Shown here piece by piece: positions 21,036-46,411 of a stretch of 64,000 bases of DNA. Numbering within the stretch: the first letter of the stretch is position 1; every line of letters starts with the position of its first letter. The position numbers were made by a program, and so were the translations under genes. Under the pieces are notes generated by a model, which saw nothing but the letters and a program-made list of their open reading frames with translations, did no database searches and was not told the origin of the DNA. Source of the DNA: Acanthacorydalis orientalis (taxonomy: Eukaryota > Arthropoda > Insecta > Megaloptera > Corydalidae); assembly GCA_034766995.1 (NCBI GenBank), contig CM068314.1, forward strand, positions 20,311,701 through 20,375,700. The letters are read 5' to 3'.

Positions 21036-21039
21036 AAGA

Positions 21040-21505: not shown

Positions 21506-22827
21506 TTAGGGACTATTGTTTTGAAAGCTCTCTAATTGAAAGACCATGGTATAACGCAACTTTGATGATTTCGTAGCTGAGTTAAGCTGTTAAATAAAAC
21601 GACTTAATAAATACACTTTTAATATTTATATGGCAAAGTAATAAGGAATCATACCAAACAAAATGTATTTAAAAATGTTTTTCAGTGTAACGATTGATTT
21701 ATATTTTTCATTCTGTTATTATTTTGATAATAAAAGCTATTTTGATTCGAAACGATTTTTTATTATTTTCTTACATTAAACAATCTACTCTTAGTGGTTT
21801 AATAACTAAACTCAGTGGATATATTCCTCTCTTAATATATGACATAAAATTTTATAAATATATTTTAAAATTGAATGCTTAGTCTTATGATGAACGTTGA
21901 TGTATGTCAAAAAATCAAACTCGGTGTTCATACTGGTCTCTCCAGTATTCACAATTATATGCATTTTTTCAGTAAGAAAACATGCATTTACATCTGTATG
22001 TAATCAAAACTATAATTATGGGTACTACTATTTAAGAATTTTATTATAATGTAGGTAATTTATTTTTTAATACGCCGTGGTACAAAAAAACTAGATACCG
22101 TTATTCTTGCCGAAATAATAATTATTGTAAATGTAGATAAAGTCTATTATATAATATTTTAAGGAAGTCTGCAAAAACATGTTAAAATACTTTTTTCATG
22201 TATTTTAAATATTTAATTTTAATATTTTGTATTTTTAGCTCAGATGTTCATTACTACTTGTATTCTATATTCATATATTCTATTAATTTATTAATATCCT
22301 TATAAGGACTTGTTTCTTATTCCTCTAGAACGACTGTTGGGGAAGCTCGATTATATTAATCATGACTGAAGTTCAATGATGAACTTATTGTTTTGGTTCG
22401 TCCATATATGCTTAGTTATAATTATAACCGAGCTATAAATACTACTCAATTCATAAAAATTATTTTTATGTTATGAACGGAATCATCGATGCATCTGATA
22501 GTGTGTAATCGGTTTTAAATATGTGCATTGAGAAGAATGTTTATTATTTTTTCTCCAAGTCTATTCAGCCATTTGGACCATATAGCGAGATCTTATCTCA
22601 ATGATGGACAATATTCTTTTCCATTTGTTTAAATCGTTGTCCCTGGTATACACACACTTATTTTAATCTGGCTATTTGATAAATTCTTTCGATTTTAACT
22701 TCAATTTGTTAAGCACTTATCTTAGGTTTGTTAATTGTATATTACTTTATGGTAGCATATTTGTAACTCTGTGAATACAATAAAACCAGCATCTTGCCTT
22801 GAAATAATTTTCTTTGCCTCGAATCCA

Positions 22828-22830
<3 letters not shown>
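21506..22830. other. AT-rich intronic sequence
   Basis: Nothing recognisable. The 62-codon frame at 21694-21882 is AT-rich and featureless. Confidence 0.6.

Positions 22831-22897
<67 letters not shown>
22831..22897. repeat. (CT)n/(TA)n compound microsatellite
   Basis: Fifteen CT units (22831-22860) pass directly into a TA run to about 22897. Confidence 0.95.
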
Positions 22898-22900
<3 letters not shown>

Positions 22901-22953
22901 GTACATACACTCATACTTATCTCTTGACTTACATACTACTTTATACTCAGTTT

Positions 22954-23034
22954 TTTATGCGGTAAAGGATTCCTCCATTTACGCGATACTTTTTATATGC
23001 GATCTCAGTTTTACGCAATCTCATTTTACACGGT
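22954..23034. repeat. Degenerate short tandem repeat, TACGCRATCTCATTTT-like
   Basis: Four imperfect units follow one another: TTTACGCGATACTTTT, TATATGCGATCTCAGT, TTTACGCAATCTCATT and TTACACGGTTAG. The first is preceded by TTATGCGGTAAAGG. This may be the decayed end of a DNA transposon with sub-terminal repeats. The family is not identified. Confidence 0.4.
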
Positions 23035-23640
23035 TAGAAAATATATTTTTTTATGGAATTTATTGATATTATTGTATAGAAGTGAGTGAAAAATTCTAAT
23101 TTTATTGTACCTATTACATCATTCTGACCTTTTTTGTTTGATTTGCGGAGAGAATATCAAGCTTCTCTGCACAAGTGATAACAAATTTACTTTTTCGCAC
23201 TTCGTGTAAATAAAGCAAATACAAAAAACCAACAGGGCAGCGCAAACTGCGCATAGAGAGATACTGAATAGCTGAAAGTTAACTATTAACTAGCACAAAG
23301 TTATTTATAAGAAAGGTACGTAATGAAAAAAGGCGTAAGTATTAGAAACCAAAACCGAAATTATAATCACAAAAATATCGAAACCAAAACGAAGCCAAAA
23401 TCAAATAGAAACAAGCAAGAGAAGCATAACCTTGTTAGTACATACGTTATAGTATACATTTAATCGTAACAACAGTAACCTTATGTTTAAAAGGGATTAA
23501 TTATCAAACAGATAGTAAATAGCCAACTTTTTATTCAGTTATTGATAATTGTATTAATTTTTGTGGCTCAGCAATGTCAAGTAAATGTTCAAACTTCAAT
23601 TTGATTTTTTTTTTCTGAGCAACAACACTTGAATGAGTAA
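23035..23640. other. Intronic sequence, possibly transposon-derived
   Basis: Contains CTGCGCATAGAG (23248-23259) and a purine-rich stretch with repeated AAACCAAAACCG-like units at 23346-23412. No open frame. It lies between the degenerate tandem repeat and the mariner relic and may hold the lost 3' end of either. Confidence 0.3.
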
Positions 23641-24160
23641 CACATTGAACTCCAAAAGTGATGTGCAATATTGGTCAGTAACTGTTTTTCCCTTTTGAAA
23701 ATAATCTACCTAGAGAATTCCTTTCGCATCTTAGAAAATTGACGACATCACTTTTTCAACCGAGTGAACCATCTTTGCTTTCTTGGAGCGTTTTATCGCG
23801 TTTCTGCTATTTCGCTCATTTTCACTCGCCGGTCAGACAAATCAATATCGTGGACTTTATCTATGATTTCTGGCGTGACAGCTGTCCTCGGGCCTTGTGA
23901 GCGTAGTGCATCTTCGGTGTTCGTTGTGCCACGTTTAAATTCATTCTTCTAAAATCGAATGGCTTTGTAGAAAGAACAAAATTCACCCAATGTTGGAAAT
24001 ATCTTCTCATGGATTTCATTTGCTGTTTTTCCTTCCAAAAAAAGAACTGAATCACACCTCCGATTCCGATTTTATCCATTTTTCACATTCACACGAAACG
24101 CTCATGTTAAAATAACTGTCAAACGAAGAATTAATGGTGGAATGACTCGTTACTTCACAT
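23641..24160 (-). mobile_element. Mariner (Tc1/mariner) relic with internal deletion
   Basis: On the minus strand the start codon at 24079-24077 begins MDKIGIGGVIQFFF. After a frameshift the frame reads LEGKTANEIHEKI, then, past a stop, EFKRGTTNTEDALRSQGPR, TAVTPEIIDKVHDIDLSDRR and VKMSEIAET. These are the N-terminal helix-turn-helix parts of mariner transposase. The sequence then jumps to SKKAKMVHSVEKVMSSIF, a stop in place of the expected Trp, DAKGIL and a stretch ending SLLEF at about 23645, which belongs to the catalytic domain. The segment between, including the first catalytic Asp, is missing, and the C-terminus with the remaining catalytic residues is not recognisable. Sequence just above 24079 resembles a mariner 5' leader. 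Terminal repeats were not found. The element is dead. Confidence 0.85.
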
Positions 24161-25095
24161 CCATTACTAAAAGAGAAGAACTAAATGAAAACATAAATAG
24201 CTGTCTCCTTTTCTTTCATAGAACGCACGGACTAAGCTACTCTTCAAACCGCTCATGAGTGAATATATGTGTATGTATGTATGATGTATGGGATATATAT
24301 ATATATATATATATATAGTGATGAACATTTAGAATAAATATTAGTATAGGAAGTTGACGAATTTTATTTAAAAAAAAAACATCGAATAGTGTAATATTCT
24401 GTTTTTTTCAATATAATATTCATTTACTTGAAAAGTCCGTAAATATGGCGTCTAAAATATGTTTAATAAAAACGCACGAATTATTATAGTTATCTGTTAA
24501 TAACTATTTAATGTCGCAAAAGCTAGAGCTGGTAATTTTTTTTAATAATTTTATCAGTGTAGAACTTTTGCAATAGTAAAAGAGAAATTAATTACTGTAC
24601 ATCTATATTTTGTATAATGTGCATTGACGAGTTTCTCTACATCTGAAATATTTTAATATTATGCAGTTTTTAATTTTGAAAATAAATTTTTATTAATCGG
24701 TTTGTTAGAATTGTTTCATCTTGTAGAAATGTATGCCAGTTATAAATCATGTTACTGTATACAGAGATATTAAAATACGTGAATAAATATATTGTACGTG
24801 GGATGTGTAAAAATCTTATACTTGAAGCGGACATTTAAAGAAAGCTTATGTGTTGTATTATGTTTTAGTAACATAGATTAAATTTAGAAGTTATTTGAAA
24901 TTATTTTATTCATAAATTATGAAGTTGGATAAGACTGAAGTAGTGTTCACTTTTCGAAGTATGATATATTAATCATATTTATTTGCTGTCTTGTTAAAGA
25001 TTATCAGTTTATAATCAGTGCATAGGCCTACTATTTACCTGCGACGATTAGAGAGCTTCATTTTATCAATAGTTTACTTCGTCAAGAGTACTGTA
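24161..25095. other. AT-rich intronic sequence
   Basis: Contains a short TATG/TA tract at 24266-24317. Nothing else is seen. Confidence 0.6.
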
Positions 25096-25295
25096 TAGGC
25101 AAACGTCATTATGTTCCCAAGCGGTGTCTCACCGTCTGCAAGTTGCGTTCAACTGTGTGTGGATAGCCTGGTCGGATTTGGAGCAATGAACCCTGTCGTC
25201 TGACGCAGCCTCCTGCCGCCACCGTATCGTAGCCCGTGCTACGCGTTCTTATACCATTTTTCGTATAACATCGGATTATAAGATTATTCATTAAT
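25096..25295. other. G+C-rich island
   Basis: A block of about 190 bases including GACGCAGCCTCCTGCCGCCA (25202-25221). A 60-codon minus-strand frame (25109-25291) is open, with no known domain. I tested it by eye for a tRNA-like T arm (GGTTCATTGCTCC on the minus strand) and found no cloverleaf. Confidence 0.35.
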
Positions 25296-26654
25296 GCATT
25301 TTTTTCTTAATGACGATAAGTTAAATTGAATCCATATTTTTTATCGTTTCAAAATAGTTATATATATAAATGAATAAAGTATATTTTTATCATCTTTAAA
25401 ATACACGTTTTTATTTGTAGTATATTTAAAAATATTTGTCACGAATAAAAAACGTTATCATGTCTGATAATTATTATATTCGTAATTTTTACCGGTCAAT
25501 ACGTATACTCAGCTAGAGTGTACCTAATACACTTGCGAATGATGTATCTTGGAGAGATGTAAAATATTTTTATCCCTAATATTTGTTGTTCTTATATGTG
25601 GAATGCAAGTCTTTTAAATGTAAAAATATTTCTTTATAACAGATATTAGATAAATAGCATGCCCTTTAAAGAAATAAATCATTAATTTTAGGTTTTCGAC
25701 AATTTTACGGTATGGGTTATTTTTTTTAAGCGGTTTTTTATAATTTCGATATTAATAGTAAAAGGAGATTAAAAAAATCATTCAAGTAGAAATAAAGATA
25801 GGTTTTTATTCATAAACAGTATATTTATGCTCTAGTTAAGACTCCGAGATTCGAAATTTATATGCTGTTTGAAATCGAGTGAATTTTTTTCCATAATATT
25901 TAAAAATATAATTGTCTTCGAAAAAGAATTGTAAAGCAGTTAATTAATTATTTAAAGATATATATCATATAACTTGTAGAACTGTTATTGTGAGGTATAT
26001 ACTTTTCTTAACGTATTTCTTGAATGGTTTTTAACAATTTTTCGAATTTAAATTTGGTTGAGTTTATAATAGTTGAAGAATTTTTTATACTTTTTATAAT
26101 TCCTTTTATACATTAGATATCGTGTAGACCGATAGATGGCTGTAATTATTTACAATCATTTGTCATACTAATATTTTTAATCTTTTTTTTTTAAGCACGA
26201 GAATATAATTTGCATATATTCAAAATAATAATTGTTTTTTATTAAATTGAAAACAATAATAGCGATAACTGATTTTGTAATTTTTGGCAATTTAAAGATT
26301 GTATAACTTTTTTGCGTGATAAATTATAATGTTTTTTTTTAATATGTTGAAGCAATCAAATACCTGAAACGTAAAAATATGAGTGAACTTTTTTATTTGC
26401 CAAAACATATACCCTGTTTTTGAAAATAAATGTAAAATTCACCTTATTATTTTATTCATGACAATATAGTTTTCGAAAAGTAATGACGCATGAAACCTTG
26501 AAAATTCTATTTCTGAATTATGTTTTGTAATAAAAATTGTGTGTTTATAAATTACAGATGTTCTTCTTTGATGATTGAAATCAATTTTTGTACACTGCAA
26601 TTTTGTACATCAAATATAGAACATACAAATTAGTTTGGTATTTCATTTTTTAAA
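25296..26654. other. AT-rich intronic sequence
   Basis: Nothing recognisable. Confidence 0.6.
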
Positions 26655-26799
26655 TTTTATCAAATCAAAAACTGAAATGCCAGTACATACATAGTCCGTT
26701 CGCATTTCTTACAGCAATCAGCCATGATGATTACAACAATGGCGACACGACAATAGAGCAGTGTCGATCGTATGAACAGATCATAGAGCGAATTTTTAC
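26655..26799 (+). repeat. Duplicated segment, copy 1
   Basis: Matches 27140-27289 with 12 substitutions and one 4-base indel by hand count. The copy contains GCCAT (26721-26725) and ATGGC (26739-26743), that is, two YY1/Pho-like cores in opposite orientation, 18 bases apart. Nearly all differences from copy 2 are transitions with A or T here. It has no open frame or terminal repeats. Confidence 0.9.
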
Positions 26800-27139
26800 T
26801 GTACTAATTCTGTGTTGTCTTTTAAATTAAATATGTTTTTACTCGAACAACAAATTTAAAAATAAAATATTACAAACTGTTCTTTTCGTACTTTTTACAA
26901 GTTAAATTTCAATGTGTATGGTCTGATCGATCACGATTGTTTTTGTAGTATCGATTTGAAGGTTTTAAAAGCATATATTTTTATCGAAACACATTTTTGG
27001 ATATTCATCATATATGTAACAAATCAATTGTCGTCGACTTTATTTTGATAGTCATCTGTAACGAATTATAAAATCTATACATTCTAGAGCTTCGTTGTGT
27101 GTTAGATACACACACCATCAGAGTAGACTTGCTCATACC
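26800..27139. other. AT-rich spacer between duplicated segments
   Basis: 340 bases, ordinary AT-rich sequence with GTCTGATCGATCACGATTG (26921-26939). No similarity to the flanking copies is seen. Confidence 0.6.
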
Positions 27140-27289
27140 ATTTTATCGAATCACAGACTGAAATGCCAGTATATACATACATAGCCCGCTCGCATTTCTC
27201 ACAGCAACCAGCCATGATGGTTACAACAATGGCGACACGACGATAGAGCAGTGTCGATCGTATGAACAGACCATAGAGCGAATTTTTGC
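27140..27289 (+). repeat. Duplicated segment, copy 2
   Basis: The less AT-shifted copy. It keeps GCCAT (27211-27215) and ATGGC (27229-27233) at the same 18-base spacing. A third GCCAT core in a good YY1-like context, GGCGGCCATTATTA, lies just beyond at 27313-27326. The shared segment could be a regulatory module or a small interspersed repeat. Confidence 0.9.
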
Positions 27290-27329
27290 TCTCATTGTCA
27301 AATTGGCATGTCGGCGGCCATTATTATAA

Positions 27330-29135
27330 TGATTCTGATGCTTAGTTAACATTGTTCCTAATAGGTGGCTTTACTTATTGTAATTATAAATATTTTGTTT
27401 CGATTACGAAAATAGCTCGGGTTGTGTATTTTTGTATTACAATCTAAATATTGCACAGCGTTGAATATTTCTGTTACATATGTTACAATATTATTTCTTC
27501 AATTTCATTTAAGTCCACTGATAATTACTGTTTGAATTTCCAAAAGTTTTCATTTAAAATTATCAAACATTTTTTTATAATATTGTTACGAATTGATAAA
27601 TAGACAATTATTTCATTAATACATTTTAAAAATATGACCAAGGTATATAAGTATGTATAAATAGTTTTAACATTAAGTTTATAAAAAATGCTAAAGAACT
27701 ATCAAAATAATTAATAGATGACAAATACAACCGTTCATATAACCGTGTTTTCCGGAAAATAACTCGAAATTCTATGAACATTTAGAAAAAAGTAAACGAA
27801 ATATACATATAAATAATTTTATATCTCTATTGATGATTCTATTAGGGGTCATAAGTTCTAATAGTAATTCGATATTTGATTGTTAAAATTTGCTCCTCAC
27901 AGGATAAATATTCCTGCATTGTTGTATTTAATGAAACTCTTGTTATTTAATTTGTTATCCTAACATCAAAGAAAAGTATGAAATGCAGCAAGTTTACACG
28001 AACAGCAATGTGAGCTATGACCAAAGTATTTAACATAATAGTTCTCATTATGCAAAACAGTTGGTATATAATGTAAAATATTTTTATAAAAATATTACGA
28101 AAGGATTAAACAGCTTACTAAACAGCTTTACATTAGCCTATAACCTCCATTTCTTATGATATAAATGTGCTTTTATTTTTATAATTAGCGTTTTTTTTTT
28201 AATAATAATGTATGCTTTAAATTAGGTTAAACTTCATTCTTTTAATACATTTCAGCTCAAATAAATACGTATTCTATTAACAATAGTATACTTACTTATA
28301 TTATTTACGAGAAATATAAAAATACGTTTGTAATAAAATGAAATTGTTTTAACAAGTATTAAATCATTTTGTATAAGATTATCTTATAACTCATTCAATT
28401 TGTAATATTCTTTTATTAGCTGCTAAAGTGTTTTTATTTTTAATTCATTTTTTAAAAATGTTCTACCAATAACAGAATTTAGTTTACAATGGTTTGAAAT
28501 ATTAAAGAAATATTTTTTCTCTAAATTGAAGAATATATATAAAGTGAATAAGATGCATTGAAAACTATATATTACATTTTAAGATTGTTTTATATCAGTT
28601 TAAAAAAAAAAGGAAAAATTTTCAGTATTAGTAATAGTGTTTTTTACATTACATTTGTATGTATATATATATATCTCAAAAACATGTACTATAAAGAATT
28701 GAAAATTTGTTGCTCGTATAATTATAAATTATCCAATGTTTGAGAATTGCTATGTTAGTTTTACAAAATGATTTTCAAATATGCAAGTTTATTTTCATTT
28801 GTAATTATATAAATAACATATTTTTCTCAATTTTACATATTACACGTTTTTGATATTTATCTATGTAATATAAAGGTATATTAAAGAAAATTTATTGTAT
28901 ATAAAACATTTAGTATTATTTAAATTAAACTTTTCGGATTTTTAATGTAGTCATTTAAGTTTCATAAAACATTTTTTATTACGCTATAAATGTATTATTA
29001 TTATTGGTGTACTTATTTAGAACTAAAATTCCGTTATTATTAAATATGAGAGTAATATGTGTAATCCTGTTGTCTAACAGTTGTTTTTTTTATATAAAAG
29101 CGTACGTTTTTTATCCGACCGGAAAGAGTTGTTAA
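27330..29135. other. AT-rich intronic sequence
   Basis: Nothing recognisable. The 61-codon frame at 28558-28743 is AT-rich and featureless. Confidence 0.6.
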
Positions 29136-29139
29136 GTGG

Positions 29140-29390
29140 GTATTAATACAAGACAACTATTTTCGTTCTGCATTAACGTTCCATACCAAAATTGACCACA
29201 CTTGCATTATGGTGTAAAGTTGTGGTTATTATAAACACACTGCATTAAAACAGGTACGTCGCCATGCTTGTTGTCCTTGAGGTTGATTGCTCGCACGAGC
29301 GCAACTCTTCTTCCTGAGCATATGTGATCACATCGCTTTTGTCTGTCTCAGTTATTCGAGCAGTGGCGTGGCGGAACGCATAAATACTTA
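29140..29390. other. G+C-richer island
   Basis: Contains TACGTCGCCAT (29255-29265), similar to the GACGT-GCCAT motif of the islands at 21133 and 41600, and GCTCGCACGAGCGC (29289-29302), a near-palindrome. CAG|GTACGT at 29251-29259 looks like a fused splice site but has no pyrimidine tract. Candidate regulatory element. Confidence 0.3.
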
Positions 29391-31091
29391 GTAATTATTT
29401 CAGGAAATAAAGGTGAAAAGTAATTAAAAAACAGTACATTGATTTATAAACCGAGTATTTTTTTTTGATACTTTCAGACAGGTTTGAGTTCACGGCAGTG
29501 AATGGCGCCTTTTTAATACTGCTTCTAAAAATATCAATTTTAATTCTCTTAGATTTTTGAGATATCATTTATTTTGTATTCTTTTATGTTTAGTTTACAT
29601 TCTAGTTGTATTATTTAATTTTTATATTCAACACATTTTGTATACCCTTTCCATTTTGAGATACATTTAATCAAAGGCTAATGCCATTTTCTAATATTTT
29701 TCGTATTTTTTACATATTTATTTTTTTCTACAATTTATCTTTAGTAGAATTTTATAAATGATAAAAATAAAACGTAAGTCTACAAGTGACAATTTATAAA
29801 ACGTAAATATAATTAAGAGAAATTGAAAAATCGAAATTGTCGGTAAGCACCATACGACTGAGAAAATGAAAGATAAGTAGCATTCATGTACTGAATGCTG
29901 TCGATTACTGGTGTATGTGCAATGAATTTAATATTAATAAAACACTGAAAATTATTTATTGATTACGATTCGTCAAATAAAATATGAGCAAATATTGGTT
30001 AGTCGTATTTAACAGTATTAATTTCAGTGATGATAGACAGTTGAAGATGATCGTTTATGATTTATGTACTTAAGCATATATTTTAATACATATTTAAATA
30101 ATGCCAAGTAAAAGATATTGTCATTGCAAGTTTTACTGAAACTAATAATACCATTTTAATACTTGTTACCTTATTCTCTGTTGAAATACTTGGATATATG
30201 ACTTTTCTTCTCGATATGTCTTTGTATCATTAATGATAAATCTTGACCATGTATTCAATCGTGACAAGCAACGAATGATTATACATTTATGATCAATTTT
30301 AAAAGGTACCTTTTTATACAACTTTCTTTATATGTAAGTAAAAACGGTATTATTTTTTCAGCTAATATTGTGTTAAGTTACTGGCCGATGTGTGAGCTTT
30401 TATCAATTAACAGATTATTAAAATAATGGCCAGAAATATACTATTTTGAAATCGTACACACATACGTACGTACATACACATATTTATACGTAATGAAAAT
30501 AAATATCAAACATTATCTATATATAAAGTGAAATAGTTATTTTTCTTGTAGGCAACTTTATGTAAATAAAGCTATATAAGTCGTGTGCAAATTTAAGAAC
30601 AAAAACTATGACACTAGTATGATATAATGTATTACTCACTTCACAGTCATATCAATATATCGCTTTTACTGTTGTATTCCCGGTCGTCTAGCTTCCATAT
30701 TTGTGCGACATTTTACATTTGCATAATTGGATTGTGCTTACGTTGAAAATCGTTACAGAATGTTACATGGAAAAAAACATTCATATGTCCTGACTGAACG
30801 TCCAAGTCAATCTTTATTGTTGGCATTCACTTAGGTTAATAAAATAAATAATATATTTTATATAAATTCGACAATTTCTATTTACAAAAATTAACTGTTT
30901 TTTCAAAGAATAAAATTTATATACACACACATAATAGTAAACCTGTTTATGCAGGAAAAAGAATTAAGCTTATGTATAAACTAGAGAAGACACTTTTTTC
31001 ACTTTTATATTTTGTTGAAATATTAATTATACTTGTTATTCAACTTTATTAATATTTACTAAAATATTGTAATGCATTTTCGTATATTATA

Positions 31092-31094
<3 letters not shown>
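29391..31094. other. AT-rich intronic sequence
   Basis: Nothing recognisable. Confidence 0.6.

Positions 31095-31152
<58 letters not shown>
31095..31152. repeat. (TA)n microsatellite
   Basis: About 58 bases of TA. Confidence 0.95.
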
Positions 31153-31157
<5 letters not shown>

Positions 31158-31547
31158 GTTATATTTATTCAAATTTTATAAAACAATATTGTGTGCAGAC
31201 AGTAAGTGACCAATGTGAAGTTATTTCAGGACACAAGACTGGAATTTTCACGATGACATTCACATAACCTTATATGGAAGCAACATTGCGTCTGCCTTTT
31301 ATATAGTTGCGTACAAACACATACATAGGATGACTGTGTGTATACAGATGAACATTTTTTAACAAACTTCCATTTATATTTATTTGTTATTGATTTTCGT
31401 ATTCTTTTTTTTTAAAAAAAAAACAAAGGAATAAAATATAAAGATTTTTATATTATTATTATGCAAATATAGATGCATTTGTTATTTGCAAAATAATTAT
31501 ATTCGTTTAAATAAAACATACGCGTGTGTGAATATATTAAGTGTGTG

Positions 31548-31579
<32 letters not shown>

Positions 31580-31943
31580 TACACATGCATGCACACATAG
31601 TCTTTCAAACAAGGTGTGCTGATATAGCATAATAAATTTTTATTTTATTAACTTATTCTTTATGATTTTTCATTAAATGTTTACCGAAAAACGATAAATG
31701 TATTTTTGTAGTGACCATTAATTTTCAAAGATAAATTTTCACCAAAATTGTTAATCGCTTTTATTTATGTCAGATTTTTTTTTATATATACTTCACGCTG
31801 TTTATTTATGAAATTATATTATTAAATTATTTATATTTTATAATTTGAAACAAACTTAAAAATAATTGAAAATCAATGCATGTAAATATAAAGAAAATAG
31901 AAAAAGGGAACATTTATTTTATATTATCGTTAATATTCATTTG

Positions 31944-31946
<3 letters not shown>
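31153..31946. other. AT-rich intronic sequence with T9A10 junction and short TA/CA tract
   Basis: T9 followed by A10 lies at 31405-31423. A TGTG-TA-CACA compound tract runs through about 31520-31600. Nothing else is seen. Confidence 0.6.

Positions 31947-32009
<63 letters not shown>
31947..32009. repeat. (TA)n microsatellite
   Basis: About 62 bases of TA; first of four TA tracts within 600 bases. Confidence 0.95.
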
Positions 32010-32014
<5 letters not shown>

Positions 32015-32122
32015 GTAACTAATTTTATATTTTGTTGACATCAAGTGTGACCACAATTTCCTTATTAACATCACTATAGACGATATATCTTATCATATTA
32101 ATAAATATTTTGTTATCTTATT

Positions 32123-32124
<2 letters not shown>

Positions 32125-32168
<44 letters not shown>
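32125..32168. repeat. (TA)n microsatellite
   Basis: About 44 bases of TA, flanked on the left by ATCTTATTCA and on the right by TCAATAAGAT. Together with the tract this forms an inverted repeat (ATCTTATT / AATAAGAT). Confidence 0.95.
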
Positions 32169-32170
<2 letters not shown>

Positions 32171-32434
32171 ATAAGATAAGATGCATAGTGTTATTTGTCT
32201 CACGGAATTGATGCCAAAACATGTAACTAATAATTAATTTTGATAAAAGACGTATTTTCACAGAAATAATTTCAATGAATATTTTAATAAAATTATGGTA
32301 AATATTCAATTTTTTATAAACTAATATCTGTTCTTATTTTACAATAATTTATTTAACTAATGTATGTTCTTTAAGTACATGGAATTAGAGATGATGGTTT
32401 TTTGGTCGTAATTATTTATTTGTAAACAAATATA

Positions 32435-32438
<4 letters not shown>

Positions 32439-32483
<45 letters not shown>

Positions 32484-32490
32484 GTATATG

Positions 32491-32541
<51 letters not shown>
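32439..32541. repeat. Two (TA)n tracts separated by a short linker
   Basis: TA runs at 32439-32480 and 32497-32541 are separated by AATGTATATGTATT-type sequence. Confidence 0.95.
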
Positions 32542-32545
<4 letters not shown>

Positions 32546-33940
32546 ACATGTATACACTCACGAACACATACACGTATATAATGTATGTATTATGTTATAA
32601 ACAAAATTGTACTTTGCAGATAATTTCACTCTGTTGAAAACATACTTATCAATTATGATATATTGTTTGCTATTTTTTAAATTTGTTTCTACTTTATGAA
32701 ATGCATTCAATTATCTTTATCAAGTTACATACTTTACATCGACTATTCGTTCTGTTCAGTTGAGATAGTTCTAATTCTTGTGCCCATCCTGGTTTATATT
32801 ATAAATTTGGCTCTATTTTTAGTTCTAATGGAATCTTGTTTATCTTTAGCCTGACTTGTTCAACATAAAGTATCGTAATCGATGTTTAGTTTCAATTAAT
32901 ATTGCGATAAATATAACAGATTCGCTAATAAACCATGAACATTTTTACCGTGGTCTTTCATTTTTTTACGCTTCTTCCAGTTCTGTATGTGTTTTTTTTT
33001 ATTATTAAATATTAACCGTTTTTGAGTCGATATCATTGGCCATAAAAATATTACATGTCTTCTAAATAATGAATGTGTCAGTGATTATATAATGTTTAGT
33101 ATAGTATCATATCGGTTTAGAACGACATTTGTAAAAAAAAACATGCTATTAGATTTTCACAGTTTCATCAGGTTTTTTTTCTTTGGAAAAAATGAATTCA
33201 AATCAAATATGGTTTCGAAAAAATAACATTAGTACTACATCTAAATTATTTATTTCGTTGACTTGGATTTTTAAATTTACCTCAAATGTTTTTCATTTTA
33301 CACACAACAGTAATAGTTTTTTTGTTAAGATTTCAAACAAAAAAATGAAATAATTACTGTTTTAAAAGGATACATTTAAAATATTTTCTATGGATGTCCA
33401 AGACCTTGCAAGCTCCAAATTATTTTCTTAGTTTGTTTATTACAAGAATATGATATTAGGATGATAGCATCGTCATCAAAATATGCCTAGGCAACAATTA
33501 AAAATGACCAATAATAATCGTGTATGTTATTTTTGGCCAAGAGTATATTTTGTAATTTCTGGGGAAGAAGAATTAATTAATGAGTGTTTTTTTTCAATTT
33601 AAACAAAGACTGTCTTGAATTTAAATAAGAAACATCAAAATATATATCAAGAGTAAATAGTTATTTATAATTTATTTTCTAATACTGTATTGATTTTTGT
33701 TTTTCTTCTTACGAACTTTCCATAAGTTATTTCCTACGTGAAACAGAACTTTGACATAATGTCGTCGATTTTTATTAGCACCATAAAATCTTCATGCTTG
33801 TAATTTTATTCTCTAACAAAGATTTTACAATTTTTTAAATTAATAAGTACTATATGTTATGTCAAAGTATTTCTGTATATTAATTTTAATTTTTTAAATC
33901 TGTTCTTGAATTTAAGATGTGTATGTAACGAGTAGATGTA
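32542..33940. other. AT-rich intronic sequence leading to second recursive site
   Basis: No exon or repeat is recognised. Confidence 0.6.
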
Positions 33941-33972
33941 CTAAAAATGTTTTCTTTTTGTTACAGGTAAGT
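33940..33972 (+). other. Recursive splice site 2 (zero-length exon, CAG|GTAAGT)
   Basis: TACTAAAA at 33939-33946 is a plausible branch site about 22 bases before the acceptor. It is followed by a T-rich tract and TTACAG ending at 33966, fused directly to donor GTAAGT at 33967-33972. The 18-base core TTTTTGTTACAGGTAAGT matches site 1. The site lies 14.2 kb after the TLK exon donor, on the same strand. Juxtaposed 3' and 5' sites in a long insect intron are the recognised form of a ratchet point; actual use is inferred. Confidence 0.85.
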
Positions 33973-34011
33973 AGTGCTTCCTTTCTCATAACATATAACC
34001 AACTATTATTG
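33967..34011 (+). other. Candidate RS-exon 2 (45 nt, in frame)
   Basis: A second donor, TTG|GTAAGTTG, at 34012 defines a 45-base exon after the recursive acceptor. It is the same arrangement, with nearly the same length and donor, as at site 1. The TLK exon ends in phase 0. If this exon followed it directly, the 45 bases would read through as 15 codons (VSSASFLITYNQLLL) with no stop and no frame change. Use as a real cassette exon is unproven; the usual expectation is that it is skipped. Confidence 0.5.
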
Positions 34012-34077
34012 GTAAGTTGTAAAACCATCAAACTATTTTTAAATGCTTAGATATGTTTCATTATTTTTAGAACATCG

Positions 34078-34081
<4 letters not shown>

Positions 34082-34141
<60 letters not shown>
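34082..34141. repeat. (TA)n microsatellite
   Basis: About 60 bases of TA, 70 bases after the RS-exon donor. Site 1 is likewise followed by a TA tract about 65 bases after its donor. Confidence 0.95.
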
Positions 34142-34145
<4 letters not shown>

Positions 34146-34464
34146 GGAGTATACTTTATATACAGAATGTATTTTTTATAATTCCAAATTGTTTTTTTTT
34201 TTAATTAGAAATTGTATTTCGGGACTTACTGATCTTAGAGAAATCTTGAACTTTTTCAACAGGTTTTAAACAGAAGTATTTGAGATTGAAATGTATTCGA
34301 TTGAAAATTTTTTATATTCTTTTATTTTCCAAAAAGTTAATGTTACATTAGATTTGACAACTAATTGATATTTTTATTTTATCCAGTTGCTATTTCTTTA
34401 AACATTTTTATTTATGGTGTTTCTTTTCAAATTGTTTGCATATTTGAATGTTTTCTGAATATGG

Positions 34465-34465
<1 letters not shown>
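34142..34465. other. AT-rich intronic sequence
   Basis: Nothing recognisable. Confidence 0.6.
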
Positions 34466-34525
<60 letters not shown>

Positions 34526-34534
34526 CACACACAC
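34466..34534. repeat. (TA)n/(CA)n microsatellite
   Basis: A TA run to 34520 followed by CATACACACACAC. Overlapping open frames on both strands are repeat artefacts. Confidence 0.95.
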
Positions 34535-34924
34535 TTATCTATATGTATGTATAACATATACAGCAAATACATATTTATGCTCACGTTTGTGTGTTTATTA
34601 TGTAATGTATTGGAAATGATTTCTCTATTGAAATAAATGATTATTTCGATTTGCGATAGTCTATTGAATCGTTTTTTGAATCCGTATATAGAAATAAACT
34701 TGTTTGGTATTCGTGTATTAAAAACAAATAAAATATTCATCTATGCTTGATATTATATACATGTACTTCTGCTACCTTGTGGAAAAATGTATAACTACAT
34801 CTAAGGTACACAAAACTTATCTATGCATTCGTGAACGAGTGTATATTCACTAATGTAAGAAGTACACTACCGTGAATAATCACATACATACACACACGTA
34901 TGCATACACAAACTTTGTATATAG

Positions 34925-35155
34925 TGAGAAAACACTGACAGTTGGCGACGGTCTGTTGGTTAGCTGGATTGGTTGCCTGCCTGACTGGTGGGATTCGTTT
35001 CCTCTCGGAAGTGCGACGGGTCATGCCACTTATAAACCGGGGTGTACCGATGATCAATAAGAGGAGAGCCCAACTATATACTCCTATGTTGCCGCATTCC
35101 TTGTTGTATGCTGCTCACTTGGCATACAATTGTATGTATGTAGATAAACGTAGAT
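34925..35155 (+). promoter_or_regulatory. G+C-rich island with TATA box
   Basis: Contains TTGGTTGCCTGCCTGACTGG (34968-34987) and CTTATAAACCGGGG with TATAAA at 35031-35036. GATCAAT follows about 25 bases later, rather close for an initiator. Open frames on both strands (34821-35057 minus, 34872-35157 plus) carry no recognised domain. Candidate promoter or enhancer. Confidence 0.35.
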
Positions 35156-35428
35156 AGAAATGAATTCATGTTTGTAAAAAATCGGACGTCATCGAATTTT
35201 ATGTAATTTGAAATGTATTTTCATATCGAAAACCCAGTCAGTGTATGACGTATTCTCCTCGATTAAGTCTGGATATTATTTTTACAATGTGCAAATTATT
35301 TTCTGCATGGAGAAGAATATCACGTAGTTCAACTAGCAATTTAAAACACAAATGCGTTTTCTTTCTAATGCCAATATAAATTTATGAACATACTATATAT
35401 TTAACATTTTTTATTTTACGCACATAAC

Positions 35429-35430
<2 letters not shown>
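35156..35430. other. AT-rich intronic sequence
   Basis: Nothing recognisable. Confidence 0.6.

Positions 35431-35483
<53 letters not shown>
35431..35483. repeat. (TA)n microsatellite
   Basis: About 53 bases of TA. Confidence 0.95.
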
Positions 35484-35486
<3 letters not shown>

Positions 35487-37180
35487 CATTTAATTTTCAC
35501 CATTTCTTTTATTCAATAATTTTCTCATAATCGGTTTTAAAGTTCATTGTTTTGCAAGAAATAGAGTATAACATTTTTTTAATTTCCTTCATTTTGTAAG
35601 ATAAAGTATGGAAAAATTCGATGAAATTTCTTTTTTTCAGTGAAATATTTTATAAACAATTTTGCAAAATTATGTTTTCAAATATTGTCCTAAAATTACA
35701 TTTCACTTCTTTTCCCCGTTATATGGTTATCTTAAATACTGTTTTCTTTCTTTATGGATAATTTATAATTAAATTCAGTTTTAATACTTTCAAAATTCAA
35801 CTTTTTAGCAAGTTTTTTAATTATTGGAAGAAAAAAATTGGAGATGATTGACGATAATCATAGTGAAATTAAAGATTTCGTATCAAATTTATTATATTTT
35901 ATTTTTCATTTAATAGAATTTTCTACTAATGGAAGTAATTTTGTCTTATGAATTGTTGTTGCTTCTGTTTTTCTTTCTTAATCCTTTGCATCAATTTGGA
36001 TAAAGTTACAAAATATTTTTATTGTTTATGTATCTTAAGTATAGTAACAAGCAAGGATACTATAGTTGACGACATTGGTACGAAATGAGCTACTATGAAA
36101 TATTACTACGAAAATGAATAACTTGCCTGGTATACTTTTTTTCAATATTTAATTTGCTGTGTTTTTTACTGCTTGAAATTTAAATAAAATCTGTTGGGAA
36201 AACAGATGTTAATGTATTAAATTATAAATTACATTTATATTTGTAATAAAATATGTCAAAGTTAAAACGACGTCATTATAGCATTTATAGATATCCAATA
36301 TCATCGTTTTTACATTATTGTATTTTGAATCAAATTTCGTTTAATATGTACGTTTGATTATTTTATAGAACCTGTATAGTGTTTTTATACTTTATTAGAG
36401 TATTAAAATATGTTGTTATTACAACCATAATTAAAAAGAAAACAAAAGCATATTCTTCAGACGCATTCATACTAATTTGAATATTTTGATGGTTCACTGG
36501 TTCAACATATGACGTCATTATTTGGGCGTTTAGTTAGTTCTACTTGATCTTCATGTATATTCGTATGATTGTGTTGTATAGATCATTTTAGTGGGCGATA
36601 TTCGTACAAACTTAACAGTTTGAGTTTAGTGTTTTAAATACTTATTTTTTAAATGGATATGAATACCAATAAAAGAAACTATCTGTGGATGAAGTGTATA
36701 CCGTATTGATTATTGTGGTAAATATGAATCAAACTAAATAACTTTTAAATTAAATCATGAATGCATGAATCATTTCACCATGACATCTTGTGTTATGAGG
36801 GTTACTGAAAGGTAGATATGTGTGCATTTGTCAAAAGTTAGAGTATATTTTTATATTGTAACTTTAAAGTATTTGATTTGTAAAAAAACAGTTAAACACT
36901 ATAGGTGCTTGTGCGTGAAAAAAAATATAATGAAAATAAGTACTTTTTAACTACCTATATTTTTAACTCGTTAGTTAAAAATGTGTTCTTAAAGAAAGAA
37001 AAGGAATATGCTGTGATGGCAAATCTTTTTTTATTTCTAAGTAACAAGTGTTCACTTTGCAAACTTGTAAATTTAATATGCAATTATCACTTTTGTATAA
37101 ATTACATTTAATTTATTATTTCTTTAAAAAATGTGAGTATGATAATTAATATAATTTGTTAACTAAATATTGGGATGGAT

Positions 37181-37182
<2 letters not shown>
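35484..37182. other. AT-rich intronic sequence
   Basis: Nothing recognisable. The 68-codon frame at 36905-37111 is AT-rich and without a known domain. Confidence 0.6.

Positions 37183-37222
<40 letters not shown>
37183..37222. repeat. (TA)n microsatellite
   Basis: About 40 bases of TA after GGATGGATGGA. Confidence 0.95.
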
Positions 37223-37227
<5 letters not shown>

Positions 37228-37645
37228 GATTTCTAAAATAATGGATTTTTTTAATTATGAACATTCTCTTCATTTATCTATGACTTTATCTAGTTCTGCC
37301 TTTATCTCGTTCTTTTTTTTAAAAAAAGAAGAAAATAGATTAATATTTTTAATATTTAATATAGCGTTTGAAAGTCATTTAAAATGTATGATAATTGAGA
37401 ATTATATAATATTTAACACAAATATTTAAAGCATATGAAGGTATTAAATACTTTTAAACATTAATGATTCAAGTACAGCAAGTACCAAGGTAAAATGTTG
37501 TGTATCATTATAGTGTTCAGAAAGAGTAAATATAAAATTCGTGTCAACTAACTATATAGTACAGTCACATCAGATATTCATTATATAATCATATAAGTAT
37601 TTCATGTTCAGTTCGTAAAAAGAGCATAAAGTGACCCTTATTATT
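37223..37645. other. AT-rich intronic sequence with T8A7 junction
   Basis: T8 followed by A7 at 37313-37327, flanked by TTC and GAA so that the palindrome extends. Nothing else is seen. Confidence 0.6.
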
Positions 37646-37649
37646 TTCT

Positions 37650-37870
37650 TCACTGTACGTTATTGTAACATGGCACTCTCATGCAACTTTACACGTATTC
37701 CTTACGTCTTGCGTTGACTGACCATTGCCTCGATTATTCAATCATAATAATCAGGTTTAAAATCTTCCCTTATCCGAGGGGAGTTTGTAAAATCGACTAG
37801 CTACTGCATTGCATGTCGAGACAAGTTTTACTTGTTCCCTCCCGCTTTCGTTCAGTATTGTATTCTAGGG
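37650..37870. other. G+C-richer block
   Basis: Contains TTCCCTTATCCGAGGGGAG (37767-37785) and TGTTCCCTCCCGCTTTCGTT (37834-37853). No open frame. Possibly regulatory. Confidence 0.25.
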
Positions 37871-38335
37871 TGATTTTTGTTTAGTTATTACTGTATTTGA
37901 AGGGAGTTATATTACATCGTGACCTGTGATGAATGTATTTTTTCTGTGACGAATTTTCATTTTTAATGTCATGTTTGAACACAAATTAATTACGCTTATA
38001 GTAATGAACATATGAGAATACTTTTGCATTTAAGTTGTAGTACAGTTAAAGGACACAAGAAGTTTTATGACAGCGTATAATTTTTTTTAATAATGTTACA
38101 TATCTTTTAATATCGTGGCATTAAAAATGTGTACGTTTATGTATTTTAATTATGTTAAGTAGCAGGTTGATGATATTGAAAATCAGTTGTTATTTGAAAA
38201 GTGTAGTTGGGCATCGTTTATACTATTTTGATATCTATCAGATGTATTTGTTTTAATATAGCCATATATATATATATATATGTATATATGTTCATATACA
38301 TATATTACTGAGTGTAGACACCAAAGGCTAAACTC
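37871..38335. other. AT-rich intronic sequence with short TA tract
   Basis: TA/TATG/CATATA tract at about 38262-38305. Nothing else is seen. Confidence 0.6.
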
Positions 38336-38725
38336 TGGATTGAAGTGAATACGAACACGACGGTTGTGTTTCTATTATCCCCGCACCTCATCCCCATGGG
38401 CTCTACTATGTTTCCGACCGGATCACCCCGTCCTTTGCTTTATTGCAGGCCGCACGTTTCTCCCCTTACCATTCTACATCCCAAACCATGTCTTCAGTAC
38501 TTCTCAGTCATCGAAGATGCTTTCCTTTGCTAAAAGGAAGCATAGCATTGGATCTTCTACCGTTATAAACCCAACCAACAGGCTGAGAAATGGTACGAGT
38601 AATGACAAAAAGTTTAGCAATCCGTGAACGAAGTAGGATATTCTCGCATTGCGAGTGATAATGCCGTCTTTGTTGCTTTTCAGTTCTCTATTTTGACATT
38701 TTGGTTCGCTGTCCTTCACATACAC
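38336..38725 (+). other. G+C-rich island with acceptor-like site and 87-codon frame
   Basis: CCTTTGCTTTATTGCAG ends at 38448 and is a good 3' splice site. A weak donor ATG|GTACGA lies at 38593, which would give a 144-base exon. The plus frame 38364-38627 runs through it and ends with a basic, serine-rich tail (KMLSFAKRKHSIGSS). I recognise no family. It may be an alternative 5' exon, a processed fragment or a chance open frame in a C-rich block. Confidence 0.25.
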
Positions 38726-39705
38726 GTATAATTTTTCTCTGTCTAAAAGTCATTTTGACGTTGCCGTATTTTTACTTAATGCACCATTGCGACGTTGTCG
38801 GATTTAACGTTGATACAAACACTTCGCATAAGATATATTTGTGTCTGTGTTCATAGAATATGTTCAGTACATTTTACCTATATTTATTTTTACATATTTT
38901 CAATTCCTCATAGAAATATATTCATATTTTTTTGAACGCCTGTGCTGTTCTATTTTTTTCATATTTCTTTTAAACATATTGTAAGACTCCTACGATTGTG
39001 TATAAATCGTATTGTTGGAAATTATTGATTTTGTGTACTTTGTATGTTTTATTGAAATCGTTCGCTTACTGTTTATCTGTAATAATTTTTTAAATGACTT
39101 TTAACCCATCAATTCTACTTAATTTATTTTTTTTTACATTTTTATCTAAAGACGTAAAAAATGATTACAGATCATAAATATATTGATTATTGCCTTCTTT
39201 AAAAAAAATTTATTCTTTTCACAATAAATATTTCAAATTGTTTGAATTTACAAATACTTGTCATTACATGTATTTTCAATTTTATAACAGAAAAACAAAC
39301 TACGATGCATAAATTTCTAACGAAATATTTATAATTAGGTCATAATCGCAGTTCGTCAATTCTGGACGAACATTGTGAATGAGAAAGTTTATATTAAGCT
39401 GTATTTCTTTAATGTTTGTATTTGTTATGCGAGTGATATATGAACGAAACGCGTTGGTCCGATGAAAGAACACTATAGACGATGAAAGGTAAATGTAATA
39501 TTCACTCTTCAAACAATACTATCGTGAGCCTATACAGTTTAAATTGTATTTGAAAAATATTTCTGGAAACGAAATTATTTTGAAAAATTCGTTACACTCA
39601 AAAACAAATTATATGCTGTTTTCCGAAATGTTTAAACTTGTCAAATATTCTATGCAATTCGATGAACTTAATAATAATATGTATATAAATAAATAAATAA
39701 AACAT
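38726..39705. other. AT-rich intronic sequence
   Basis: Starts with a small CpG cluster (GACGTTGCCG at 38758-38767, GCGACGTTGTCGG at 38789-38801), then plain AT-rich sequence. The 70-codon minus frame at 39300-39512 is featureless. Confidence 0.5.
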
Positions 39706-39709
39706 TCAT

Positions 39710-39970
39710 ATTGTTACGCGTATTTGTGGAACACGATCGGCGAGTAGTCGTAACATCGCTGCAGCGTGTGCCGCGACCACTGACAACAATTCATAAAACA
39801 ACCGCGCGCTGCCACTTGCAGCGAGCAAGTGAGCCACTGACCGACCGAGCGAGGAAGCATCGTCGGCTGACGGCAATTGCCGCCGCAGCCGCTGTCGTAA
39901 TCGTTCTGTCAACGACGCAACGTGCGTTTATAGTCGTTGTCGTTCAGGTTGAACGATACGTCATAGGAAT
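39710..39970. promoter_or_regulatory. CpG-rich island
   Basis: One of the most G+C-rich blocks in the window, with GCTGCAGCGTGTGCCGCGAC (39759-39778), ACCGACCGAGCGAGG (39839-39853) and GCCGCCGCAGCCGCTGTCG (39879-39897). Frames of 68 (minus) and 119 (plus) codons are open. The plus frame runs on into AT-rich sequence and lacks a known domain. Best read as an enhancer or promoter. Confidence 0.4.
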
Positions 39971-41470
39971 ATATTTCATTGATTACATTTACGTATTTGA
40001 TTTGTACATGTACTATTTCATATTAATATTTTTATTCGTCGTCTTAAAATGTTATTGCAACAAAAGTTAAAGTTCTTTTATATATGTATTTATATATGTG
40101 TGTGTGTATGTACTTTTAACTTTTGAAGATAAAAATCTTCCTCGAGATAAATAAGTTTAAAAATGTATTACAATTATTTAATTGTAGTAACGGGTATTTA
40201 TAAATTATGCAGTATTTACTAACTTAATGGCAGTGGATGAGAATGTAGCCTACACTAGATATAAGTATTTAAAGGGAGTAACTATACATTTAACTGGTCT
40301 GCTTATATTAAAAAATCTATTTTTTTTCAAATAAAGTAAATTTTTCCACTTAATCGAACGGCTTTATCAAAGTGAAAATTCTATCTTTTGTTTATTCTAC
40401 TGTTGAATTTTTTAATATTTTTATTTTTTGTAATATAATATGAATTATAATAACTAACTAATATAACTCTATGTGATGAAAATACAACATGAACCAAAGA
40501 TACGTTAAAAAAAGAAAATAGATAAAATATCGCTGATTATTTTATTTTAATCACTCTATTTTCGTACAATCAAACTTGTTAAAGTAACTTTCGTTTTATG
40601 GCGATTTATATTAAAATATTTATTTTGACTGTCTTCGTCTAATTATTATTCAGTCATATTTTGTAGTCTTTCTAGAACGTTATCAAAATAACAATTATCG
40701 TACCTAATTGTAGAGGGATTGCTCTTTGTCTTTTTTATTTTAATAATAAATCATTTGAACTTTTAAGTTTATTAAGTTTTTTTTTGATAAAACTACTTAT
40801 TACCGTTCTTCTCATACAATCCGTAATTTTAATTTTTTGTGTTTGACGTAGCATTATTTATGTGTACTATTTTAATGAGAATAATTAAATCATTTTTATA
40901 AATTTTATCTCGACAGTGTTTTTGTTAGACAACGAATTAATGAACTTGCATAGTTGGCTGTGTGAACGTTTAGCGAATACGACCTGAATGATATTATTTC
41001 GATCGATTACGAACAGTAGTCAGTTCATGCAAATATGCAGTTTGTCTGAATAAAGCTTAGTTGTCGATAGTGCATCGAATGTGCAGGCAAGGTTTTATAG
41101 AGAATCGGCGAAATTTCATGTATTTTAGTAAAAAAATACATCATTTATTTCATGTGGATGATTATTTAATATGAATTTTTTGAATACTTTGTTTTTTTTT
41201 ATCTATTTATGTATGAAGCCAGTATATCAATCTATTTTCGTTTACAGATTAAAAAAAAATTTTGTTACTCTCCTCAAAATTAATAATGTTTTTGTTTCGT
41301 TTCGGTTGTATTAATATTGTTTTAGTCGTATGACTGCGAATCACAAGGTTATTGTTATTAACATTCGTTACTGTTCGCAACATGTACATTTTTTAATTTT
41401 CATTAAAACTAGAATTGTTTATCTGTCCTATTTAAATCTCAGAAATGCTGTATAACGTATATTCTTTGAA
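39971..41470. other. AT-rich intronic sequence
   Basis: No repeat or exon recognised. 40930-41110 is slightly richer in G+C (contains TTATTTCGATCGATTACG at 40994-41011). Confidence 0.55.
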
Positions 41471-41474
41471 TACT

Positions 41475-41765
41475 ACTATTTAATCATGAACCGTGCGACT
41501 AGCGGGCGGAGCACGCAAGGCAACATCGCACTACCGCCAGCTGATAGCTCGCGTCTGGGTGCGGGGTTTGAGACGTGCGGAATCACTGGCGGTGTGGCGC
41601 GCGACGTTGCCATGTAGACGATCCGTCGCAGAACAGTTCTGTCTGCTTTCTGGTTTGGAGTGAATGGCATTGCAAGGTCTGCGTCGGACCGAGCAGGGTG
41701 TTGTGTGTTGTGCGCGCTCTGCGGCACACACAAAACAGCTGAACGACGCGCGATATATTATACGC
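41475..41765. promoter_or_regulatory. CpG-rich island with GCCAT motif
   Basis: Contains CGCGACGTTGCCAT at 41600-41613, 13 of 14 bases the same as 21133-21146, plus AACAGTTCTGTCTGC and a CpG-dense left half. Three overlapping minus-strand frames of 66-85 codons are open in different registers, which argues for base composition, not coding. Candidate regulatory element. Confidence 0.4.
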
Positions 41766-43500
41766 CTGGCAAATGAAAAATACTTTTAATAGACATACGT
41801 CATCTTGTTTATAAATTAACACTGTTTTACCGACCACATCGGATAATAAAATTTCACGTGAAAATGAGATACACTAAATATGTTATTAGACGTGAATGGT
41901 GTTTGCATTTGAGAATTGTACAATTGTAAAACGCTTTTCGTGTATTATTGATGATATGGTATGCTGTACACGAAATTTAGAAGTATATTTTTAAAATGTT
42001 CTAAACCAAACGTCTAGATTTAAAATAAAATTTAGTTTTTCTAATTCAACAAGTGTGTGACAGTGAAAATATGTTGTCGAAATACTCTTATTCAATTGTA
42101 TATAAATTATAATGAGGAAAAAATGTTACAGAATAATAAAAATTGACTTTAAATAATTTTATTTCATTTCGTTTTTTAAAGTAAATTTCTTCAGATTAAA
42201 AAATAAAAATATTAGAAAATTATTTAGTTTGAAGGAACTGAATGTGTATTTAAATATAATTTGTGTATTAAAATTGTGTAAATTCGCATACATCTGTGAT
42301 ATTTTTTTATCAGAACTTCAAGATAAATACATTCGTCGTTTTCCAAATTCCAATTACATACTTTGAGGTACATTATTATAAATAAATATTCACTTCCTAC
42401 ATAACTAATTATAGAGTGTCTTCTTGTAAATGGTTTTATAATTATTTTTTGTGCTGGACATAAACGTAAAAAATGTCGATCGTGTTAAAATATTGGTTTA
42501 CAGATGTTACATTTGTAAATTCTGACAATGCAATTTTTTTTTTGTTGATATCATTGGCTGAACTTCGATAATCATCGCCATGATTCGTCGATAAATACAA
42601 AATCAGCAGTGCTTGCCTGCTGCTGATTGGTACATATCCATTATTTCCTTTAAATCTGTGATAATATTGAATGGTTTATTTAAATTGAGCTCTCTAATAT
42701 CAAAGCTAGTCTCGTTTTTATAATATTCCGTTTATTATTCAATTTAAGTAATTTAATGATATTTTGGAGAATATTGTGTACTTTACTGACGCAAATTAGT
42801 TTTATTCAAACTCTGTGCGAACTGACTGATTATTGATTTTTTTGTTTAATAAAACATTGGAGTTTAATTGATTTATTTATACGAATAACTTATTAATAAT
42901 TTAAATACGAGTAATATATGCGGCAAGAACAATGAAAACAAGGTGAATAAAAAAAGTGTAAATCGTATATTTAAAAATGTAAATGTACCAAATAAATGCT
43001 ACTTTGTAATTTGGAAAATCATAAATATTGTGATTTTTCATATTGAAAGTTATTACAAATTTCAAGTGTAATCAACATTATTGCTCGACAGTAAAGTGTG
43101 TTTTGTAGAAAATATAAATTATAGTTTATATACAACATTACTTTCATGTATAACAATTGTTACAAGTCCATTTCAAATACTCTTTTTATAATTTTTATGA
43201 TTAATAAATGTGCGTATAATGTCAAACATAGCAACAAAATAGTTGTGTAGTTTAACTGCGGTTGAAAATAATTCGTTTCCAATCAGAGTCTGACATTTTC
43301 TTACAATTGTGCTTCTTGACATGGATATATACAGCTTTCGGTCAATATGAATAATGTAGGTCAACGTACGTATTTTTCATAAATACGGACAGTAAATATC
43401 ATGTAAAAGTAAATCTTGTTAACAACTTGATAATTGAATTTTTGCATGTAATAAAAGTTAATGAAATAGTTCGGCGAACGAATGAATTTTTAATTGTTTA
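41766..43500. other. AT-rich intronic sequence
   Basis: TCAGCAGTGCTTGCCTGCTGCTGA (42602-42625) is a small near-palindromic stem. Nothing else is recognisable. Confidence 0.55.
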
Positions 43501-43720
43501 TAAAGTGGTAAAAACGTACTTTCAGTGTTGTCAAAAAATCAGTATTTTCTATATTAAGTTTTGTATTTGAGTTTAGTATTAGTGGATGTTCGAGTGATAA
43601 AATGTGTCTCGGTGTGAAAAGTCTCGTTAATTGTGACCTGTCGCAAATATTTGTGAATTTTTATTTGACGCCTGTTTAATATAAACGCACCTTTTGCGGG
43701 TGTGTGTACGTTTTTTTAGT

Positions 43721-44143
43721 ATGTGTCAGTGTTCCGAAGATCTTTATAGTTTGACTTCGAAATTATATCTGGTTACGGCGAAGAAATTTATTAACGCGTA
43801 CGTGCAACTTGTAAATGCGCTGAAAGAAGAAAGAAATTCACAAATATGCTTCTTTAGTACAAGAAGTAATCTGAATATTTTTTTTACGTTCAAGTCGACA
43901 GGATATTTGTTCTGTGTGTGCGATACCATCTTTTTACGGGAGTGTTGTAGTAGTGTATCTGACGTTAGTGGACGTCTACCATTGTCGGTGTCGTTGATTA
44001 GAACGCTGCCGACATCAGAGGCGCCAACGTCGACGTCGTCTTATTGTTATCATGGATGGAATGCTACGAGCGCTTTTACTTCATTATTGGCATTTTCAGA
44101 AGGTATTGATCTTGTTAAAATATGTCGAATGCTTATATATTGA
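43721..44143 (+). CDS. Candidate alternative exon or small gene, 140 codons, unrecognised
   Basis: A strong acceptor, GTACGTTTTTTTAG, ends at 43719, two bases before the ATG at 43721. The frame is then open for 140 codons in sequence that is only moderately G+C-rich. The N-terminal third contains a plausible amphipathic segment (SKLYLVTAKKFINAYVQLVN, then ALKEERN). The remainder is Ser/Thr-rich and contains a cysteine cluster. An in-frame ATG also lies upstream at 43694. I see no strong donor inside, only AAG|GTATTG at 44102. No family is recognised. It could be an alternative first or internal exon, a non-coding exon, or chance. It is the longest non-repetitive open frame in the window. Confidence 0.3.
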   Translation: MCQCSEDLYSLTSKLYLVTAKKFINAYVQLVNALKEERNSQICFFSTRSNLNIFFTFKSTGYLFCVCDTIFLRECCSSVSDVSGRLPLSVSLIRTLPTSEAPTSTSSYCYHGWNATSAFTSLLAFSEGIDLVKICRMLIY

Positions 44144-44198
44144 AATAGTGTACATGATACATTTTTTTTAAAAAAATAGTACGCGATATGAATTCTGC

Positions 44199-44205
<7 letters not shown>

Positions 44206-44250
<45 letters not shown>
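44206..44250. repeat. (TA)n microsatellite
   Basis: About 45 bases of TA; a T8A7 junction at 44162-44176 lies just upstream. Confidence 0.95.

Positions 44251-44253
<3 letters not shown>

Positions 44254-46369: not shown

Positions 46370-46411
<42 letters not shown>
46370..46411. repeat. (TA)n microsatellite
   Basis: About 42 bases of TA. Confidence 0.95.

Follow-up and report, generated by a model that had tools for sequence, protein, structure and literature searches.

The site designated RP2 is in all likelihood a ratchet point of the Drosophila type, equipped with a cryptic RS-exon, that would split an intron of 62,885 nt in the gene for a tousled-like kinase (TLK); it lies in the window (the whole 64-kb stretch of DNA analysed, C2:20311701-20375700), together with RP1, which carries the same 18-mer in the TLK intron upstream. 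After transcription, the acceptor whose AG ends at 33966 and the donor beginning at 34012 (Table 1) would be recognised jointly as a tiny exon, and splicing of the exon at 19670-19755 to 33967 would remove 14,211 nt and leave the upstream exon with a rebuilt donor, AGG|GTAAGT. This donor would then outcompete the RS-exon donor and be spliced to 82641, so that the last 48,674 nt were removed and the mRNA kept no trace of the site. RP1 would follow the same route in two steps of 23,953 and 18,964 nt. That splicing takes these steps in this order and skips the RS-exon is predicted from the DNA, and RP2 would very probably add a sound example to a mechanism that is well known from fruit flies, the mechanism itself not being new.

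The TLK gene was rebuilt from the window and 200 kb of flanking sequence (negative coordinates denote positions upstream of the window). From the exon at 19670-19755 to position 93613, the model comprised 11 coding exons and 754 residues in an unbroken reading frame, with the kinase exons located downstream of the window on the same strand. The kinase part matched the solved TLK2 chain 5o0y (E 2.5e-155), and the best relative among the 120 listed of 2,369 was that of Chrysoperla carnea, at 91% identity over the full length, from which the host is probably a lacewing or close kin. A further coding exon, ending at -23248, reads MTENRCYSGG, joins GAGVKMEQF in frame and is consistent with TLK N-termini from other insects, such as MTDNCWNSGG. 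The intron of RP2 spans 19756-82640, with RP2 at 22.6% of its length, and that of RP1 spans -23247 to 19669 (42,917 nt, including 2,500 N), with RP1 at 55.8%. The remaining nine introns of the model measured 126 to 3,253 nt; one predicted recursive site was found in each of the two giant introns and none in the nine others. The preliminary description had proposed the stepwise removal of one TLK intron of more than 44 kb: the testable sequence features of stepwise removal were present and the host intron was indeed giant, but the two sites lie in separate giant introns, of the lengths given above.

Table 1. Coordinates of the TLK exons, intron segments, ratchet points and predicted RS-exons
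Feature	Position	Strand	Remark
TLK coding exon upstream of RP2	19670..19755	+	reads GAGVKMEQFQAALDPRKQELLEARFLGAR; phase 0 end AGG|GTGAGT
First predicted recursive segment of RP2 intron	19756..33966	+	14,211 nt
Second predicted recursive segment of RP2 intron	33967..64000, on to 82640 beyond the window	+	48,674 nt in total
Next TLK coding exon after RP2 intron	82641-82731	+	outside the window
RP2, pyrimidine-rich acceptor and donor joined	33955..33972, junction 33966|33967	+	TTTTTGTTACAG|GTAAGT; from sequence
Probable branch point of RP2 acceptor	33939..33946	+	TACTAAAA; from sequence and distance
Predicted cryptic RS-exon 2	33967..34011	+	45 nt; stop-free in the upstream exon's frame, VSSASFLITYNQLLL
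RS-exon 2 donor	34012..34017	+	TTG|GTAAGTT
RP1, same 18-mer as RP2	694..711, junction 705|706	+	in upstream 42,917-nt TLK intron
Predicted cryptic RS-exon 1	706..751	+	46 nt
RS-exon 1 donor	752..757	+	TTG|GTAAGTT

A total of 264 kb (including 7,500 N) was scanned on both strands for YAG|GTRAG preceded by 14 bases of which 8 or more were pyrimidines, which yielded five sites on the + strand and none on the - strand: RP1, RP2, the end of an ordinary TLK exon (87567) and two sites past the gene (153806 and 189629). A locus scan for more AG|GTAAGT motifs with a pyrimidine tract had been suggested earlier; at the above threshold it recovered both ratchet points but no third within TLK and no second recursive site in the 62.9-kb intron. 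The site at 189629 (C2:20501329, L021, + strand) is a candidate ratchet point past TLK, which reads ATCTTTCTTTTTTTCAG|GTGAGT and is followed by a GTRAG-type donor 34 nt on. Within the 62.9-kb intron, two G+C-richer islands (39693-40070 and 41476-41873), in which open frames overlap on both strands or on the - strand, are possibly alternative first exons. The neighbourhood of TLK also included, in the upstream flank, an Avl9-like transport protein (PF09794; + strand, about -32100 to -31200) and a LanC-like protein (PF05147; - strand, about -35162 to -34824). Broken transposase fragments, which from their appearance we take to be mariner-like, were located at about 115987-116382, 178006-178287 and 190892-191200.

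The ratchet-point consensus (Y)nNCAG|GTAAGT, with AG and GT joined, is present exactly at RP2, in the sense orientation of TLK. The 18-mer TTTTTGTTACAGGTAAGT was confirmed to be identical at RP1 and RP2, both copies lying on the + strand at a distance of 33,261 nt, in agreement with the roughly 33 kb first estimated; CAGGTAAGT had two occurrences in the window, both on the + strand and none on the - strand, and no third match to the 18-mer with up to 3 mismatches was found on either strand of the window. As 0.24 such matches were expected by chance, and two were reached in 2 of 100 shuffles, the identity of the 18-mers inside the window is modest evidence, and most of the shared 18-mer is plain consensus of recursive splice sites. 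The branch-like sequence earlier placed about 22 bases upstream was also recovered: by the branch-point rule, the presumed branch A of RP2 is 33944, exactly 22 nt upstream of the AG end at 33966. Inspection of the region before the RP1 acceptor gave no branch sequence as good as that of RP2.

Absent from the preliminary description is a second donor, TTG|GTAAGTT, which follows both junctions, at +46 nt in RP1 and +45 nt in RP2. The + strand of the window contained two instances of AG|GTAAGT with a second GTAAGT 25-70 nt on, as against one in total over 120 simulated windows (60 order-1 and 60 order-3 Markov). By simple U1 duplex energy (a crude measure rather than a trained splice-site score), the rebuilt donor of RP2 was the stronger of the two, at -11.6 versus -9.1 kcal/mol for the donor of RS-exon 2. 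In Drosophila, according to Joseph et al. 2021 (PMC8605326), recognition of the RS-exon, of about 50 nt, has to come first, and its later skipping is attributed to the greater strength of the rebuilt donor. With RS-exon 1 retained, the frame would meet a stop two codons later (SGGGK, then the stop), and its skipping would therefore be needed if protein is made from the upstream start.

The motif and its spacing recurred across the genome (548 Mb in 27 contigs), in which 13 exact copies of the 18-mer were found and none of its backwards-read control. GTAAG followed 25-70 nt downstream in 12 of the 13 copies (observed range 29 to 67), and in 10 of 11 when the TLK pair was left out, relative to a background of 17 out of 767 46-nt windows from the same loci. 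The exception (L001) lacked GTAAG and had AAG|GTAACA at 46; a looser donor pattern gave 13 of 13, and the strict count was preferred because the loose pattern had been widened after L001 failed its first version. A related motif, TTTTTTNCAGGTAAGT, gave 60 matches in the genome, some of which may be due to chance since its reversed control gave 13. GGTAAG was present at a gap of 25-55 in 25 of the 60 (reversed control, 0) and at a gap of 125-155, a window of equal width, in none, while 35 matches were without GGTAAG in the tested range. The spacing rule held in sites other than those that formed it. All 17 neighbouring pairs less than 150 kb apart among the 73 sites of both lists, the TLK pair included, were on the same strand, as expected were several sites to serve a single giant gene. 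For 38 predicted RS-exons, 25 of them confined to lengths of 32-62 by the search pattern, the lengths modulo 3 were distributed 13, 16 and 9, and no clear frame preference was therefore seen. Runs of four same-strand ratchet-point motifs, spaced by approximately 20-76 kb, were observed at C4:40095218-40297000 and C12:4493993-4602792 (both on the - strand); each run probably marks one giant intron or gene that is spliced in several recursive steps.

A decoy, that is, a chance match of acceptor and donor ignored by the spliceosome, is very improbable as an explanation of RP2: the motif does have a chance background, seen in the 13 reversed-control matches, but the double-donor pattern was far rarer in the simulations than in the real window, and the spacing rule was valid in sites not used to derive it. 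The 13 exact genomic copies of the 18-mer could also suggest that RP1 and RP2 stem from a repeat or mobile element carrying it, a reading which we regard as barely credible because 50 nt of upstream and 110 nt of downstream flank, compared by eye, were dissimilar from copy to copy. A repeat family was ruled out on this comparison, in which the donor at a short distance recurred and the flanking sequence did not. Two properties of RP2 depart from the fly pattern and count against a ratchet point with a cryptic RS-exon: the site is off-centre in its intron, while single recursive sites in flies tend to the intron midpoint (PMC6110457), and RS-exon 2 is open and in frame, unlike most cryptic fly RS-exons, which are out of frame (PMC8605326).

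The latter property, a length divisible by 3 with an open frame, would also suit a regulated 45-nt micro-exon at 33967-34011, included in some TLK mRNAs and adding VSSASFLITYNQLLL between LGAR and MSAG, with the donor at the exon start switching inclusion as in the 51-nt Ubx micro-exons. This reading, which would be compatible with recursive splicing, is considered unlikely, though less so than a decoy. It gains from the TLK relatives: of the 120 listed out of 2,369 under the threshold, 81 contained the junction exon, 77 of them parsable, and among these listed matches 44 had no insert at the LGAR/MSAG junction, 17 had an insert starting with V and 16 had another insert. The 17 entries came from beetles (4), a leafhopper (1) and moths or butterflies (12), several of the latter being isoforms of one species, and their inserts opened with VS (13), VK (2), VN (1) or VR (1) and were 16-19 residues long, with a single exception of 39. 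Such starts fit an expressed RS-exon, since GTRAGT-like donors can encode them, but lengthening of the upstream exon, by way of a donor of its own, would account for the inserts equally well. The predicted peptide VSSASFLITYNQLLL is unlike all of these inserts beyond V-S, the Chrysoperla entry (the one member examined of a cluster of 9 sequences) is without an insert, and the rebuilt donor is stronger than that of RS-exon 2, all of which counts against a regulated micro-exon.

An extension of the exon at 19670-19755 was rejected as the source of a V-S insert in this gene, its frame stopping at 19816-19818, and no good donor was seen by eye between the exon end and that stop. Searched against this intron by tblastn, the inserts of beetles, moths and Hymenoptera gave no convincing match, the best one (E 0.075) being on the wrong strand. 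A second type of insert at the same junction starts with G or T and holds C-G-x-P-T-(T/A)-x-x-(I/V)-D-W; among the relatives listed, it was seen in Orthoptera, stick insects and Hymenoptera (P0002, P0007, P0008, P0060, P0104 and others), and no counterpart of it was found in this TLK intron. We put forward as a tentative and rather doubtful proposal that the TLK ratchet point is ancient, and that its RS-exon is the element which beetles, moths and the leafhopper express as the V-S/K/N/R insert.

So far as the literature examined goes, insect recursive splicing with cryptic RS-exons has been worked out in Drosophila, in which a high-confidence recursive site was reported in 63% of introns longer than 40 kb (PMC6110457) and recursive intermediates were reported from embryos (PMC8906543). 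The Drosophila ratchet points described in PMC8605326 (kuz, Bx and others) share with RP2 the motif YnNCAG|GTAAGT, a long intron and a short RS-exon with a weaker donor of its own, and the same zero-nucleotide outcome would be expected at RP2; the TLK site differs in being from another insect and read from DNA alone, with an RS-exon that is in frame and open. The Ubx exons m1 and m2, as presented in PMC8605326, are expressed 51-nt RS-exons which resemble RS-exon 2 in micro-exon length, donor start, very long intron and frame, whereas RS-exon 2 is a prediction and its peptide is unlike the inserts in the TLKs of other insects. Vertebrate RS-exons are likewise defined first and then skipped by way of the rebuilt donor, but according to PMC8605326 those of mammals are mostly expressed, with only nine fully suppressed long-intron sites. 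An excess of the ratchet-point motif has already been published for large introns in the fly, mosquito, bee and beetle (PMC2773006), and the sense-strand excess, the motif and the large insect introns agree with the present case; in the portions of that report available, the motif was counted without a downstream RS-exon donor or a gene-level case. One bee exon has been remarked upon as not recursive (PMC8553928). The main texts of PMC6110457, PMC8605326 and PMC8906543 do not contain the term 'tlk', and none of the papers searched joined recursive splicing with tousled.

The full architecture is present, and recurs across the genome, in an insect outside the usual models. At TLK and elsewhere in this genome, the joined acceptor and donor, with a second donor in a short, narrow range, can be recognised without RNA, and sequence-based catalogues are therefore feasible where nascent RNA is missing. 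With RS-exon 2 in frame and V-start inserts at the same junction in other insects, ratchet points as a source of coding micro-exons are now directly testable. If the TLK ratchet point is indeed ancient, one splice element would have changed between insect orders, from a zero-nucleotide stepping stone to a coding micro-exon.
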